In this document: one piece after another, positions 4,177 to 15,041 of the stretch
Numbering within the stretch: position 1 is the first letter of the stretch
How the letters are laid out: the number at the start of each line of letters is the position of its first letter
NCBI RefSeq assembly: GCF_000085865.1
Contig: NC_013511.1
Location: 124,001 to 188,000 of the forward strand
Direction: 5' to 3'
DNA length: 64,000 nucleotides
DNA from: Metamycoplasma hominis ATCC 23114
GTDB taxonomy: Bacteria; Bacillota_I; Bacilli_A; Mycoplasmatales; Metamycoplasmataceae
Notes under the pieces: model-generated
Told to the model about the DNA's origin: nothing
The model's input: the letters and a program-made list of their open reading frames with translations, nothing else
Database searches by the model: none
Translations under genes and position numbers: made by a program

Positions 4177-4881
4177 ATGGTAACAAAGAAAAAATATGAT
4201 GGATATCTTAAATATTCAAAAAATAATGAATCTGAGTTGATAAATTATTATCTAACTAATAATAAAAATATCTATTTAAAGTTAAACAAGGAACAAGAAA
4301 TCGTAGCCTATGTGCCACATAAGTATATGAATACAATAATATTGGATAATTTTTTAAAATCATCGGTTCCTAAACTTCTAGAAATAAAAATAAAAATTGA
4401 GCAAAAGAAAATACTTGCAATTGATATAGAAAAAAATAAATTTTATTTATGAGGCAAGGAATCAAAATTTTTAATTCAAAAAAATATATTAAATTTATTT
4501 GAATTAAATAAGAATTTGAAAATCTTAAAACAAGGTATAGAATTTACTCTAAATAAATATTTAAAAAAAATATTACTGGAACTATCAACTTTATATGTAG
4601 AAAAATTTTGTAAATTATTATGCATACCATCTGAGTCAATAAAAGTAAGAATTTTGAAGAAAAATAATGCCTGGGGAACAAATCATTTTTTAAAAAGAAC
4701 AATAACTTTTTCAGATCGATTGATTTTTTATAGAAAAGAAGTTTTGGAATACGTTGCTTGTCATGAAGTTGTTCATTTTATTTATCAAAATCATTCAACT
4801 GAATTTTGAAATATGGTAAAAAAATATATTCCTGACTTTAAACAAATAAAAAAGGAATTAAAAGATAAAATTTTTATATAG
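4177..4881 (+). CDS. YgjP-type M48-like zinc metallopeptidase
   Basis: A protein of 234 residues through three Trp(TGA) codons. The C-terminal part holds HEVVH (H196, E197, H200), followed by a third histidine at 206 and then TEFW. This H-E-x-x-H-x5-H-x3-FW spacing is the hallmark of the YgjP/DUF45 family, whose members are called predicted zinc metalloproteases. The upstream block VRILKKNNAWGTNH...ITFSDRLIFY corresponds to the family's R..K.RWGSC...I.ln..L. There is no signal peptide, so it is probably cytoplasmic. The substrate is unknown. It appears to have its own promoter and is followed after 12 nt by the next gene with its own SD (TTAGGAG). Confidence 0.8.
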
Positions 4882-5689: not shown

Positions 5690-6274
5690 ATGGCAAAAGA
5701 ACAAAAAACAGTATTAGAAAAATACTATATTTCTGAAACTTTTGATAAAGATAGAAATATTTCATTTAACTTTAAAAAGGCAAATAAGGGCATTTCAGGA
5801 AACTTTTTAAATTTTTCTAGCGCAGTTGAAGAATTTATTAAAGTTAGCGAAAATACACAAAACCCAACCAAATGTTGATTCCACCGTGATGGCGCTTACC
5901 GCGGATGCGTAAACATTGATGGTGCCCGTGTTATTGTTGAAAAAGTTGCTGAAAAACAAGTTAAAAACGAAGAAGCTATTGAATTTATCGAAAGAGAAGA
6001 ATTGGTTGAAAAACCTGCATCAAAGGCTAAGAAAGTTGAAGAACCAAAACAAGAATGTGAATGCTCATGCTCTTGCGATTGTTTAACTGGTATAGAAAAC
6101 AACAAACATTGAAAAGAATATTGAACAAAGAAATCTTCAAATAACATTGTTTGTTCAGGTATACAAGACCACAAAGGCGGAGAAAAACTATTTATTACTC
6201 TAACAGTGCTTTTATCGCTTCTAACAATTATTAATTTGATTTTGATTATTTTGTTAGCAACAAACGTTATTTAA
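5690..6274 (+). CDS. Tail-anchored protein with a cysteine cluster, function unknown
   Basis: A protein of 194 residues, not recognised. It has no N-terminal signal. Residues about 165-192 form a single hydrophobic segment at the very C terminus, so it would be tail-anchored with the bulk of the protein in the cytoplasm. In the middle, CECSCSCDC places five Cys in nine residues, preceded by a Lys/Glu-rich stretch; further Cys lie at KCWF, GCVN and VCSG. Such density is unusual for a mycoplasma cytoplasmic protein and suggests metal binding, though no known motif fits. Part of the coding sequence (5880-5930) has more G and C than its surroundings. It has its own upstream region of 157 nt and its own terminator, so it is monocistronic. 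Confidence 0.8.
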
Positions 6275-9065: not shown

Positions 9066-9190
9066 AATTAGCCTTTCTTTTATTGTTTAATACAAATAAA
9101 ATTTTATAACTTTCTAAGATTATAAAATAATTTTATTTTACATTTATAAATTAAATAATATTAATTAATATTAATATATTTTTATTAAAA

Positions 9191-9240
9191 TATAATTATA
9201 TTACTTGCATAAGTTACATAGGCAAAACTATAATAGGAGA
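9191..9240 (+). promoter_or_regulatory. Promoter region and SD of the 9246-15010 operon
   Basis: Two TATAAT boxes lie upstream, at 9191-9196 and 9229-9234. The second runs directly into AGGAGAAACAA-ATG. The first would give a leader of about 40 nt with an SD; the second would give an almost leaderless mRNA. The sequence does not say which one is used. Confidence 0.55.
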
Positions 9241-9245
9241 AACAA

Positions 9246-9620
9246 ATGCTAAACAAAAATAAATTTTTATACATATTTTTAATAATCATTACTCTTGGGT
9301 TAATCTTAATATTTTGAAGAAAAAAATACAAGGTTTTAAAAACTAAGAATTATTTAACAACAGACAATGAAATAACCTTTTCAATGCAAGATTTAATTTT
9401 GTATTTGGGTGGAATTTCAAATATAGTTTCTTCATCAGCAACTCAAAAAATTGTAAGAATTTCATTTAAAAATAAAGCAAATATTTCTATTGAAAAAATA
9501 AAAAAACTTAATGGCATATCAGGTATTGCATTTCAATCTTCAAATATATCATTAGTTGTTGGAAATTGTGCAAATTATTTATCTACATTACTTAATAAGG
9601 AATTAAACAATCATGAATAA
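9246..9620 (+). CDS. Membrane-anchored PTS EIIB-like protein lacking the phospho-cysteine
   Basis: A protein of 124 residues. Residues about 7-24 are a membrane segment ending in WRKKYK. The rest (about 46-115) follows the glucose-type PTS EIIB pattern: LGGISNIVSSSATQKIVRI, then IEKIKKLNGISGIAFQSSNISLVVG, compared with the family's LGG..NI...D.CxTRLR...KD, LK.LGA.GV......VQ.I.G. The position of the phosphorylated Cys is Ser or Ala, so it cannot carry phosphate as EIIB does. It may sense or bind rather than transfer phosphate. Its stop overlaps the helicase start by 8 nt, so the two are cotranslated. I am fairly sure of the fold, not of the role. Confidence 0.7.
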
Positions 9621-12600
9621 CAAAGATTCTAAATATCAAACATTAATGGCTAATTTATTGAATATTGATACATATGATACTTCACTATATACATCTATAA
9701 ATAGTGAAAATTTTTTTGATATTTATAACAATTTTGGCCAAGAAATATTTGATCAAATTTTCAAAAATTACAAATTTAATTGTATTTTAACCGAAGTCAA
9801 AAATAAAGAAATGCGCCAATTGCTAGAAAAGGCACAAAATAAGCAGGAAATAATAACAATTTATAAAGATAATAATGTCAGAATCGAACAATCAATATTT
9901 AAGATGCTATCAACTGATTTTGAAAAAGCTAAAACCTTATTAATTACTAAATTAGAATCAGAATTTCAAAAATCAATAGTAAATTGAAAAAAAATAATAA
10001 ATAAAGCTGAAAATATAAACATTGAAACAAATATCTGACCTTTGCATGTAGGTTTTTTATTTATTTCAATAAAAACGGATAAAAAGACAATCTTTGCTCC
10101 TTTATTATTTAAAGAAGTAACATTAGAAGTTAAAAATTCCTTGGTTTATTTGAAATCGAATTCAGATGTAAGAATAAATAGTAAGTTAGTAACATTTTTA
10201 TCTCAAGAGGGTTTTTTGTTAAATATTGATAATTTAGATTTTTCTAATTTGTCAATCGAATCTATATTTGAGCATTTAAAAAAAATTTGATCTCCTATAT
10301 ACAATATGCCTCAATCACTAAGAAGCAATATTCCGCTTGTATCTCAAAGTGATATTCAAAACGTATCTATCGAATTTCATCCCGGAATGATTTTTGGATT
10401 TTATAACGTTTCTTCTGGATATTTATGAAATCAAATGAAAAAAATTATTGAAAACGATGAATTTGAAAGTATTTTAGTACCCGAAATTAATAAAAATGTT
10501 TATAGAGAAAAAATCAACACAAGTATTTTTAATAATAAATTTAAGTTATTTAAGGTACAAAAAACAAACTTTTCACAAGATGTTGCTACAGTGTCCGCAC
10601 TATGTCAAGATACAATAATTTGAGGACCTCCAGGTACCGGGAAATCTCAAACTATTTCTAATATTATTGTCAATATAATTGCAAGGGGATATACTGCGCT
10701 AGTTGTGTCTCAAAAGAAGGCCGCCCTTGATGTATTGAGAAATAGACTAGGACAATTGAGCTTATTTTGTTTATTTGCTTTAAATGATAAGAATTTAAGA
10801 CAAGAGGTATTTTACGAACCATTAAAAAAATTTATAGAAAAAATTGAGAATTTTTCTATTTCTCAAGTTGAAAAAGGAATTCAAATTTTTTCTGATGAAG
10901 ATAAAGGTTATGTTGATACATTGAATGAAATAGAAGCACTGCCTAACTTAAATAACTTACTTCATTTCTATGCCTCAACATTGAATGCCAATTTAACAAT
11001 AAATGATTTTAATACCCTAAGATTATTGACAAAAGATATAAAATATGATGTTGAAGGACATACTTTTAATGATAAGAAAGAACTTAAAAAATATCTATAC
11101 GAAGTAAATTTAAAAAGAAGACCGTCAATATTTTCAATTTATCCAAGGTCAATAAAAGAAGCTAGTGAATTAATTATTAATGCGCCTGAATTATTTAAAA
11201 TCAATGTAGATGAAGCGGTAAAATACATTGATAAAGTAGAGTTTGCCGAATTGGAAACTTTTGTTGAAAAATATAAAAATTTATTGATTAAAAAAACAAT
11301 AAATGTAAGTAATTCAACCATTTTATCTAACATGCTATTTGCTAAATTAATAAATACAATTTCAAATTTCAATGATGAACAAAAACGTGAATATACATCA
11401 TTTGCAATGTCTATAAGAACAGGTAGCTTAAAGCCATATATGTTTTTCCATAGATATAAAAACATAATTAAAGTATTATTTCCAATAATTGTAACTACTC
11501 CTGAATTAGATTTGTCAATGTGAGGTAAAGAAGAATTTGATTATGCAATCCTAGATGAATCAAGCCAAATCTTTATTGAAAAAGGAATTCCAATTTTATA
11601 CTTAGCTAAAAGAAAGATACTTGCTGGAGATTCAAAGCAAATGCAACCAACACGTTGATTTTCGGTTTCATATAATTTTGAAGATGAAGAAGAATTGGGT
11701 GATATTGAATCTCTTCTAGATTACGCTACTGCTAGAGGAACTTATTCAATATTGCTAGATAAGAACTATCGTTCAAAGAGGGCATCATTAATGACATTCA
11801 GTTCTAAACATTTTTATGATTCCAAATTAGATGTAATAGATGATTTTAAATTAGCATTTTCTAGTGAAAAACCAATTGATGTAATTCAAGTTGATGGCGA
11901 ATGAAATAATAGTTACAATGAAGCTGAGGCTAAAGAAGTATTAAGAATAGCAAAAGAAAATCTAACAAAATATGAAAAAATAATTATTCTTGTTTTTAAT
12001 GTTAAACAACAAGAATATTTGACAAATGCAATATTTAGCGTTGAACCAGAACTAGAAAAAGCCTTATTTTCCGATAAAATAACAATAAAAAATATTGAAA
12101 ACATTCAAGGTGACGAAGCTGATTTAGTCATTATGTCTGTTGTTTATGACAAAAAAACAGCATTGTTTGGAACATACGTTGCAAGGAAGGGTGGAAAAAA
12201 CGCCCTAAATGTTGCCATATCAAGAGCAAGAGAAAAAATTATTGTTGTAAAATCAATTTATGCAGATGATGTTGAAATTAATGAACGTTCAACATCTGAT
12301 ATGCGTTTATTCAAAGAATGGCTAAAATTTTTAGATTTATCAATAATTGAACAAAAAAACTATTTATTTTTAGATAATGAAAATAAAAAATATGATGAAA
12401 AAACACAAACAATATTGTTACCAAAAGTAAGCAACCTTCAAATGGATGTATTGGCAAAATTAAACGAATTATTGAAGGAATTAAATGCTAACAATTTCGA
12501 AATAATTTCGAATTATTCAATAGGAACTAAATTATTAGACTTAGTCTTAATCAATAAAATTTCAAATAATATGATTATTGGTATCAATATTGACGATTTT

Positions 12601-13830
12601 AAATATTTGCCTGATTATAGAAAATATTTAAAATTTAAAGATGATTTTAATTTTTTACTATCAAAATCATATCCAATAATTAATATTTCTAGAATAAGTT
12701 GAATAGTAGAAAACAAACAAATTTTAAATAAGATTAAAATTTTAATTAAACACGAAGAAGAGTTAAATTCTCAAATTTTATTGCCCGAAGAAAATAACAA
12801 TTTAAATGTAGAAGAAATTAAAGAAAACATTATAGAAAATAATGCCTTAAAAAACATAAAATCAAGCCAAATTAAACAAGGTTCTGAATTAAAAGAAATA
12901 GATTTTGAAAATGTTGATGACGAAACTTTTGAAGTTAATCAAGATTCTAATAATAAAATTTATGAATTAAATGAATCTGAGGTTGCTCAATTTGAAGAAT
13001 TCCATAATAAGAATATAAATCATGAATTTAATGACCAAACCGAATCAAGAGCCGAATACTCAAAGGACTATGAAAAAGATTTTTTGATTAATTATAATGA
13101 TGTTGAATTGGATAAAACGCATATTGATCAGGAATTTCACATTGAAAATGAATTTGAATCAGCAATAAATAATAGTAATGTGGTAAAGATTGAAGATGTC
13201 ACTTCATCATCGGCTAACGATGAATTAAAAGTAACTAATTCTAATGAACAAAAAATTTCTACAAAAACAACAAGTGAAGATATTGAATCAGGATTTTCAA
13301 TTGAAGATATAAACAAAGAAAATATTAGCAATTTATTTTCTAATACGTTCGATGATCTTGATATAAATATGGCGCCTGAAAGCGAACAACAAGTTGAGGC
13401 TAAACTTAATTATGATTCAGGCATTATTCAAGATAAGTTGCATGAGCAAGACGATGAATATTTTAATTTAGAAGAAAATAATATTGAAGAGCAACAAAAG
13501 AATGATGATGTTCAAAGTCCAGATGAGACATTAAAATCTCAATTAGTTTATATTGACAATAATAAAGAAGTAAACGATAAACAAAAAAGCTATGATTTTG
13601 CAGGTTTATTTGCTGATGAAAACGAAGAAACTTCTACAGATGTAAAAAACATGATAGACATGAATACTGCAGAATATAATCAATACATGAAAAATAAAGA
13701 TATTGAACAAGATGAACAAAATAAAGAGATAACTAAAAATACTGCTGATGAAGAAATATTGAATTTTGATTTAATCGAAGATGAAAAAACTACGGAATTC
13801 AACGTGGAGGACAACAATGTCAAAAAATAG
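9613..13830 (+). CDS. Superfamily 1 (Upf1/DNA2-like) helicase with long acidic C-terminal tail
   Basis: A protein of 1405 residues, one continuous frame when TGA is Trp. The helicase motifs are all present: Walker A WGPPGTGKSQT (about 337-347), DESSQ (motif II, D648), GDSKQMQPT (III), NIQGDEADLVIMS (V) and NVAISRAREK (VI, 866-875). The DExxQ form and the GPPGTGKS loop put it with Upf1/DNA2-like SF1 enzymes that act on DNA or RNA. The N-terminal 330 residues are family-specific and unknown. From about residue 1050 to the end it is a low-complexity, Glu/Asp/Asn-rich region with no fold visible. It overlaps the EIIB-like gene upstream and the membrane-protein gene downstream, which makes a coupled three-gene unit. 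Confidence 0.9.
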
Positions 13831-15010
13831 CGACCCTCTTGATCAATGAGAGCAAGAAATAAAAAGAAGAGTTTCAATAGAAGATCAATTATTGCATAAG
13901 GATATTGGAACTAAAATCGCAAAGCAAAAAAAGATTAAAAAAATTTTATTCATAACTCTTTCTGTTGCTGGTATCGTTACAATCGTAGGGGCAACAATTG
14001 GAGTTACAAGCAGAAAAAAAATGGAATTAGTAACTTATGATGATTATATTGATGTTTCTCTATATTCACAAATAAATTCTAAATTTAAAGAATTGTATCT
14101 CGATGGAAAACAACCTGACAAAAAAAATTACCCAATTACTTGAAATGTAAACACTAAACCAATTTTAGGTGAGCCTTTTGAAATTCTAAAAAAAATATTA
14201 AGTGAGGGTGCCAATTTAAACAATGAAATCTTTAAAGAATTCAATTTTAAATATGATGCTAGTCAATGAAATCCTAGATTAACTAACTTCTTTTTAGATG
14301 CAATAAATAGAAAGCATTTGCATTTTGATATTTATTTAGAAAACAAGAAAAATTTAAATCAATCATATGTGGTAAGAAATTTTACTATTGAAACAACGAA
14401 TGTTTTAGATAATGAAATGTTTTCTGAAACACAAATTGCCAAGTGAAACGAGCAAGATCCTAATATTTCTAAGGCGGCTTTAACTAAAAATTGAAATTTC
14501 TATTATGTTACTAAAACAAATGCAAACCTAAATTTTGAAAATGATAAAACATTCGAAGAACTTGGAAACAAAATAAGTAATTTTAATAATAAAATTTTGA
14601 ATAATAGTGATTACAATTACGTTGATAAATCGCTTTGGTTAACATCTCATCCTAAAAGAACCGATGAATCCGAATTAAATTATTTTAAGTTGTTTCAGTC
14701 AGATGTAAGAGACTGGTTTGTTCCTTTTAATTTCTTAAGTCAAGGAATTCAATTGAAAAAGATTGAAAAAAATGAAAATAATATTTTTACTAAGACGCTC
14801 AATTTAGAATTCAAGTCAACTTTTTATACTATTGTAAAGAATAAATTAATTTTAAAAAATAAATCTAGTTATGAATATGCTATTTATGTTCCATTTTTTA
14901 CAAATAAGGATAAGACCATTAAACACGGCAAGGAAATTTATCAACCTAGAGTTTTTGAATATAGTTGTCCTATAACATTTGTTAATAGTAATTACAAAAA
15001 ATTTAAATAA
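13817..15010 (+). CDS. Single-pass membrane protein, function unknown
   Basis: A protein of 397 residues, not recognised. A charged N-terminal part (about 40 residues, including KIAKQKKIKK) is followed by one membrane segment (about 42-62), then a large domain that should be outside the cell. The start ATG overlaps the helicase end by 14 nt and has a GGAGG SD inside the helicase gene. The outer domain has no Cys-type lipobox and no visible repeats; aromatic and Asn-rich segments predominate. As the last gene of the operon it is followed at once by a strong terminator. Coupling suggests it works with the helicase and EIIB-like proteins at the membrane, but nothing in the sequence gives its activity. 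Confidence 0.8.
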
Positions 15011-15035
15011 AAAAACCGTTTAAGTCGGTTTTTTT
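15009..15035 (+). terminator. Intrinsic terminator of the helicase operon
   Basis: The stem AAAAACCG / CGGTTTTT with loop TTTAAGT is followed by a T-run, directly after the TAA at 15008-15010. Confidence 0.9.
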
Positions 15036-15041
15036 ATTTAA

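Follow-up and report, generated by a model that had tools for sequence, protein, structure and literature searches.

An EIIB-like membrane protein and an Upf1-like helicase encoded by one coupled operon of Metamycoplasma hominis: a candidate membrane-tethered RNA-remodelling unit

Why would a mycoplasma encode a degenerate sugar-transport domain on a membrane anchor, a 1405-residue helicase and a further membrane protein in overlapping genes? The question is raised by a trio operon at positions 9246-15010 of a 64,000-nt stretch of the Metamycoplasma hominis ATCC 23114 genome (contig NC_013511.1, positions 124,001 to 188,000; hereafter the window), for which an earlier note, made from the letters of the window, had suggested a membrane-located nucleic-acid process such as DNA uptake, RNA handling or defence. 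The comparisons presented here indicate that the genes for the EIIB-like protein and the helicase are an old, vertically inherited pair, joined by a genus-level accessory, and not a mobile module. We propose, with a probability of about one in three, that the pair is a housekeeping, membrane-tethered RNA-remodelling unit.

Gene layout and the three proteins

The M. hominis genome is a single contig of 665,445 bp. The features of the locus, in window coordinates, are as follows.

9246-15010, plus strand: trio operon of three genes, with TGA read as Trp
9066-9245, plus strand: divergent intergenic region from trpS (minus strand) to the operon, with AGGAG directly before the ATG at 9246
9246-9620, plus strand: EIIB-like membrane protein, 124 amino acids, MG_129 ortholog (open reading frame and profile match); membrane helix at about residues 8-23, then RKKYK, then an EIIB-Glc-like domain at about residues 47-120
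9613-13830, plus strand: helicase, 1405 amino acids, with a DUF4011 domain, an Upf1-like superfamily 1 (SF1) core, a REase-like domain and an acidic tail
9652-10200, plus strand: DUF4011 domain, residues 14-196 (31 bits against a cut-off of 22.2)
10558-12342, plus strand: SF1 helicase core, residues ~316-910, with GPPGTGKS, DESSQ, AGDSKQMQP, NYRS and ALNVAISRA all intact
12445-12747, plus strand: REase_MTES_1575-like domain, residues ~945-1045, with the Glu of IExDG lost (GINIDD)
12760-13830, plus strand: acidic low-complexity tail, residues 1050-1405 (Asp plus Glu 26%, Lys plus Arg 9%)
13817-15010, plus strand: third gene, single-pass membrane protein, 397 amino acids (open reading frame; start by orthologs and GGAGG)
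15003-15041: 16-pair A/T-flanked hairpin between the operon and the convergent def (hairpin scan)

The three coupled genes of the earlier note were reproduced as open reading frames, together with the overlaps of 8 nt between the EIIB-like and helicase genes (9613-9620) and of 14 nt between the helicase and third genes (13817-13830). The latter is counted from the start at 13817; the third frame, which ends at 15010, has another candidate start at 13781, and 13817 is backed by GGAGG just upstream and by ortholog N-termini. Shine-Dalgarno-like sequences precede all three starts (AGGAG, AAGGAA and GGAGG, in gene order), those of the helicase and third genes lying within the preceding coding region, and the overlaps suggest coupled translation of the EIIB-like protein and the helicase. 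The hairpin was the single site returned by the scan, on the minus strand; chance alone would yield about one over the stretch covered. The hairpin is possibly a terminator common to the operon and def.

Length, motifs, sequence matches and fold matches agree that the second gene encodes the Upf1/DNA2-like SF1 helicase described earlier. Residues 318-381 and 700-879 match AAA_11/AAA_12, and the SF1 motifs (GPPGTGKS, DE(A/S)SQ, GDxxQMxP, NYRS and ALNVAISRA) are intact in 38 aligned mollicute homologs. The AlphaFold2 model has a mean predicted local distance difference test (pLDDT) score of 83, and a Foldseek search with it retrieved Setx-ssRNA, Upf1, Aquarius, Sen1, Ighmbp2 and Dna2, with E-values down to 8e-18. 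Most of the nearest solved folds belong to Upf1-like helicases that act on RNA, with Dna2 also among the sequence and fold matches. The helicase core, motifs and fold are thus common to the M. hominis protein and the SF1B set of Upf1, Senataxin/Sen1, Ighmbp2, Aquarius and Dna2. The eukaryotic Upf1-like enzymes carry other accessory domains, whereas the M. hominis helicase has a DUF4011-type N-terminus, an apparently dead REase-like domain and the acidic tail; it further differs from this set in being bacterial and in having its gene coupled to that of an EIIB-like membrane protein.

The nuclease part of the EIIB-linked helicase looks dead. Residues 952-1041 match REase_MTES_1575 with a score under the family cut-off, and in the model the domain keeps its position in the fold (strands 962-994). 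Its motif reads GINIDDFKY here, is GFIIDN-like in relatives and is GIEVDGYxYH in outgroup G039 and G030; accordingly, the Glu of ExDG, which we take to be the catalytic residue, is lost in all EIIB-linked helicases aligned over the motif and retained in those two. In one genome (G016; L046, C1:674411-677535) the helicase frame ends after the SF1 core (917 amino acids), with the REase-like part in a broken frame of its own; the domain may thus be dispensable. Orthologs have acidic tails of different lengths after residue 1050, and in several species KTTEF stands near the end of the tail, the EKTTEF motif near the end of the M. hominis tail being common to orthologs. KTTE-type motifs occur nine times in total in the tails against 0.15 expected from shuffled tails, a contrast that is inflated because the motif was spotted first and counted afterwards. 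Since its codons vary, the motif looks like one that acts at the protein level.

The degenerate sugar-transport domain on a membrane anchor held up as well. A single-sequence search matches EIIB families of the phosphotransferase system (PTS) weakly, and a profile (A1) run against PDB chains finds PTS glucose EIIB structures at an E-value of 1.5e-12, which assigns the EIIB-Glc fold by sequence. In the alignment to the profile consensus the phospho-acceptor Cys position is occupied by Thr, and none of the 21 aligned EIIB-like members has Cys in that column. Because RKKYK follows the single hydrophobic helix, the positive-inside rule would put the domain on the cytosolic side of the membrane.

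For the third protein, one N-terminal membrane helix (about residues 43-62) and the positive-inside rule support a cytosolic N-terminus and the large outer domain claimed before, here the divergent C-terminal part. Scans of domain and profile libraries recognised no domain in it, and an AlphaFold2 model built from two sequences has a pLDDT of 32. The protein is a single, fast-evolving family, present in 23 of the 24 genus genomes; among 58 relatives it was detected in no other genus. Mean identity is 40% in the cytosolic N-terminus versus 22-29% in the outer domain, and the conserved N-terminus hints at a cytosolic partner.

Conservation and inheritance of the locus

Almost all genomes of the genus have EIIB, the helicase gene and the third gene in this order downstream of divergent trpS/thrS, so the trio arrangement is not chance. 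The helicase is found at this locus in 23 of the 24 genomes, with 43-63% identity between genomes; def lies downstream of the trio in most of them, and the third gene adjoins the pair in 22 of the 23 that have the helicase. In G019 (L089:1406-2794) EIIB is followed directly by the third gene, a natural deletion of the helicase, and in G013 the helicase is present and the third gene was not found.

A wider survey covered 119 genomes of the family. The mollicute helicases form an A and a B clade in the tree; the survey separates the two by score (about 700 bits), an assignment that the tree confirms only for the sequences in it, and the helicase matches in G087, G096 and G114 are incomplete. EIIB stands directly upstream of the helicase in 69 of the 104 genomes with an A-type match, spread over six genera (g1 23/23, g2 3/3, g4 3/3, g6 15/15, g12 5/5 and g3 20/44), and was never found beside a low-scoring B-type paralog. 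The paired genes often overlap or lie a few bases apart, while flanking genes differ between genera. Seven genomes (G024, G025, G034, G065, G081, G120 and G123) lack the trpS neighbour and, in the flanks read, are unlike the M. hominis genus, with EIIB and helicase still adjacent. The conserved coupled unit proposed in the earlier note therefore stands for the pair but not for the trio, whose third gene is genus-specific; likewise, the family survey finds the pair together in six genera but separated in some g3 genomes and in g27. The helicase scan of named genomes gave few mollicute loci among the matches listed.

Helicase distances track those of the housekeeping genes trpS and thrS (r 0.87-0.89). 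The vertical character of the pair is argued from the fixed locus, the changing flanks and these distances. The partial correlation between helicase and EIIB given trpS/thrS is 0.52, and it is uninformative because the def and hlyC controls give similar values.

Two observations concern the surroundings of these helicases. B-type helicases (L061-L067, e.g. G011:C1:559524-562676) occur in seven genus genomes at about 31% identity, in several of them between rpsO and a trmL-like gene, and have also lost the nuclease Glu. In the g3 genomes G120, G081 and G123 (L188-L190), a gene for a small ArsR-like protein (SSDVKLKLIIHLYSC) comes next and overlaps the helicase end.

The EIIB-like protein reaches beyond the helicase. 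Orthologs gave matches in 51 of 51 good genomes across the order, the weakest of which probably include some ordinary PTS domains, and within the family the protein is near-universal, also in genomes without an A-type helicase. It corresponds to the orphan EIIB protein MG_129/MPN_268, which likewise has one membrane helix and an EIIB-like domain and differs in having a predicted FtsY contact; its EIIC and EIIA partners are reported absent in M. genitalium (PMC13047044). In the M. genitalium genome (G045), MG_129 is divergent from trpS, comes after spx and nadK, and has an 11-nt overlap with rny, whereas in the M. hominis family the helicase comes next. We considered an order-wide RNA-decay operon around EIIB, with the rny overlap and with pnp and RNase J following EIIB in some outgroup genomes, and set the idea aside as weak because, in other families, spx and nadK predominate among its co-directional neighbours.

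Elsewhere in the window, positions 4177-4881 encode a YgjP-like metallopeptidase (Pfam E 1.1e-26), and positions 5690-6274 a 194-aa protein with a Cys-rich stretch (CECSCSCDC) ahead of a C-terminal membrane helix; the latter has no Pfam match, and relatives of it are encoded by other members of the genus.

Candidate functions of the pair

In the RNA-remodelling unit that we propose, the EIIB-like protein would have no catalytic role and would serve as a dock, kept at the inner membrane surface by its single helix, that recruits the helicase there. The helicase would be an active, ATP-driven, Upf1-like SF1 translocase without nuclease activity, acting on RNA close to the membrane, where proteins are inserted during translation and/or mRNA is turned over, and the third protein would serve as a genus-specific membrane-spanning accessory. 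The helicase may thereby do some of the work done in other Firmicutes by membrane RNase Y and DEAD-box helicases. Bacillus subtilis has a membrane RNA-degradation network of RNase Y with the DEAD-box helicase CshA; the proposed common principle is that a protein anchored in the membrane recruits an RNA helicase, although anchor and helicase there are unrelated to the M. hominis proteins.

The distribution of these enzymes is consistent with such a replacement. None of the 35 family genomes in the relatives set yielded RNase Y, which many genomes outside the family do have. DEAD-box proteins were not detected in g1 (24/24), g2, g3, g4 or g6, which together hold 64 of the 69 linked genomes, so that just 5 of the 69 have one; DEAD-box proteins are present in g12, in part of g27 and in several lineages without an A-type helicase. 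In the M. hominis genome, the DEAD-profile matches above cut-off are SecA, a restriction subunit and UvrB. Among the 119 genomes, 93 have the A-type helicase without a DEAD-box protein, 11 have both, six have a DEAD-box protein only and nine have neither; the Fisher p of 0.008 takes no account of common descent and is not to be read as a test.

Several points weigh against the proposal. DEAD-box loss and helicase presence lie on one tree and are not independent; g12 has both the A-type helicase and a DEAD-box protein, and G019 and G085 have neither. In the distance correlations EIIB and helicase show no stronger signal than control genes nearby, and the same fold group contains Dna2, a DNA enzyme. 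The pair is also split in 24 of the 44 g3 genomes and in all g27 genomes, with neither gene lost in those read. This last point favours a linkage without function, in which the helicase landed behind EIIB once and slow genome rearrangement kept the two together, as does the separate loss of the helicase in G019 and of the third gene in G013. We hold that account doubtful: the seven genomes without the trpS neighbour keep the pair adjacent among other flanks, and the overlaps suggest coupled translation. A Dna2-like helicase for DNA maintenance, such as chromosome segregation or repair at the membrane, would fit the Dna2 matches and the wider DUF4011 helicase-nuclease family, whose anti-phage members presumably have DNA as their target, but the Dna2-like nuclease appears dead in the EIIB-linked branch and the membrane-linked EIIB partner has no obvious repair role, and we regard this function as improbable.

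Closer to the proposed unit is a role in co-translational targeting, with the EIIB-like protein bound to FtsY and the helicase acting at the translocon, on stalled mRNA or ribosomes, and taking no part in bulk RNA decay. A pooled-AlphaFold3 study predicted contact of MG_129 with FtsY and reported one MPN_268-FtsY crosslink (PMC13047044), an interface that would place the EIIB-like protein at the targeting site, and the near-universality of that protein even without the A-type helicase points the same way. However, in the predicted complex the crosslink has a length of 33.4 A, just over the 30 A limit of the study (PMC13047044), and nothing ties the helicase itself to ribosomes. FtsY here also keeps an amphipathic-looking N-terminal segment of its own (MGFWSNLKDKLFG) and may therefore need no anchor, for which reason the EIIB-like protein was rejected as an essential FtsY anchor. 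We consider the targeting role possible but unlikely.

Anti-phage defence of the Hhe/ProA/PDC-S37 kind with a membrane sensor is very improbable. The helicase has the order DUF4011, SF1 helicase, REase_MTES_1575 in common with these systems, and its profile matches ProA (E 1.1e-68), PDC-S37 (2e-66) and Hhe (1.5e-47), but the scores are far under the curated cut-offs (ProA 232 of 1500 bits, Hhe 161.8 of 2000 bits). The locus is not patchy, mobile or in a defence island: it is vertically inherited, syntenic and nearly universal in the genus, and these features, with the lost catalytic Glu and the low scores, led us to reject the defence function raised in the earlier note as the main explanation. 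An intact REase active site (D...ExDG...H) is absent from the operon helicase (GINIDDFKY versus GIECDGATYH), and the M. hominis genome holds a separate 1572-aa DUF4011 protein with an intact nuclease motif, possibly a defence-type relative. This second DUF4011 helicase (G000:C1:290493-295211; L068:5493-10211, minus strand; full REase motif IECDGATYH) adjoins tpiA and a ribF-like gene. With regard to DNA uptake, domain scans of the three operon proteins found no ComEA/ComEC/ComFA-type domain; the genome was not searched for them.

Implications for the family

No described system combining EIIB, helicase and third protein was found in the literature, as the earlier note had held, but its EIIB-like member was already known as MG_129/MPN_268; papers on M. 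hominis transposon mutants and on MG140/MPN153 contain nothing on the trio genes. A bolder version of the RNA-remodelling proposal, to which we give little weight, is a new membrane RNA-handling machine in which a dead sugar-transport dock and a former DUF4011 helicase-nuclease, now the main RNA helicase, would replace RNase Y and DEAD-box proteins in most of the family. The lack of DEAD-box proteins in mollicutes has been noted before and ascribed to A+T-rich RNA (PMC4014445); the Upf1-type helicase, present in 93 of the 102 DEAD-box-free family genomes, offers a testable alternative. If true, the proposal would in addition assign a function to an orphan EIIB protein that occurs throughout the order, M. 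genitalium included.
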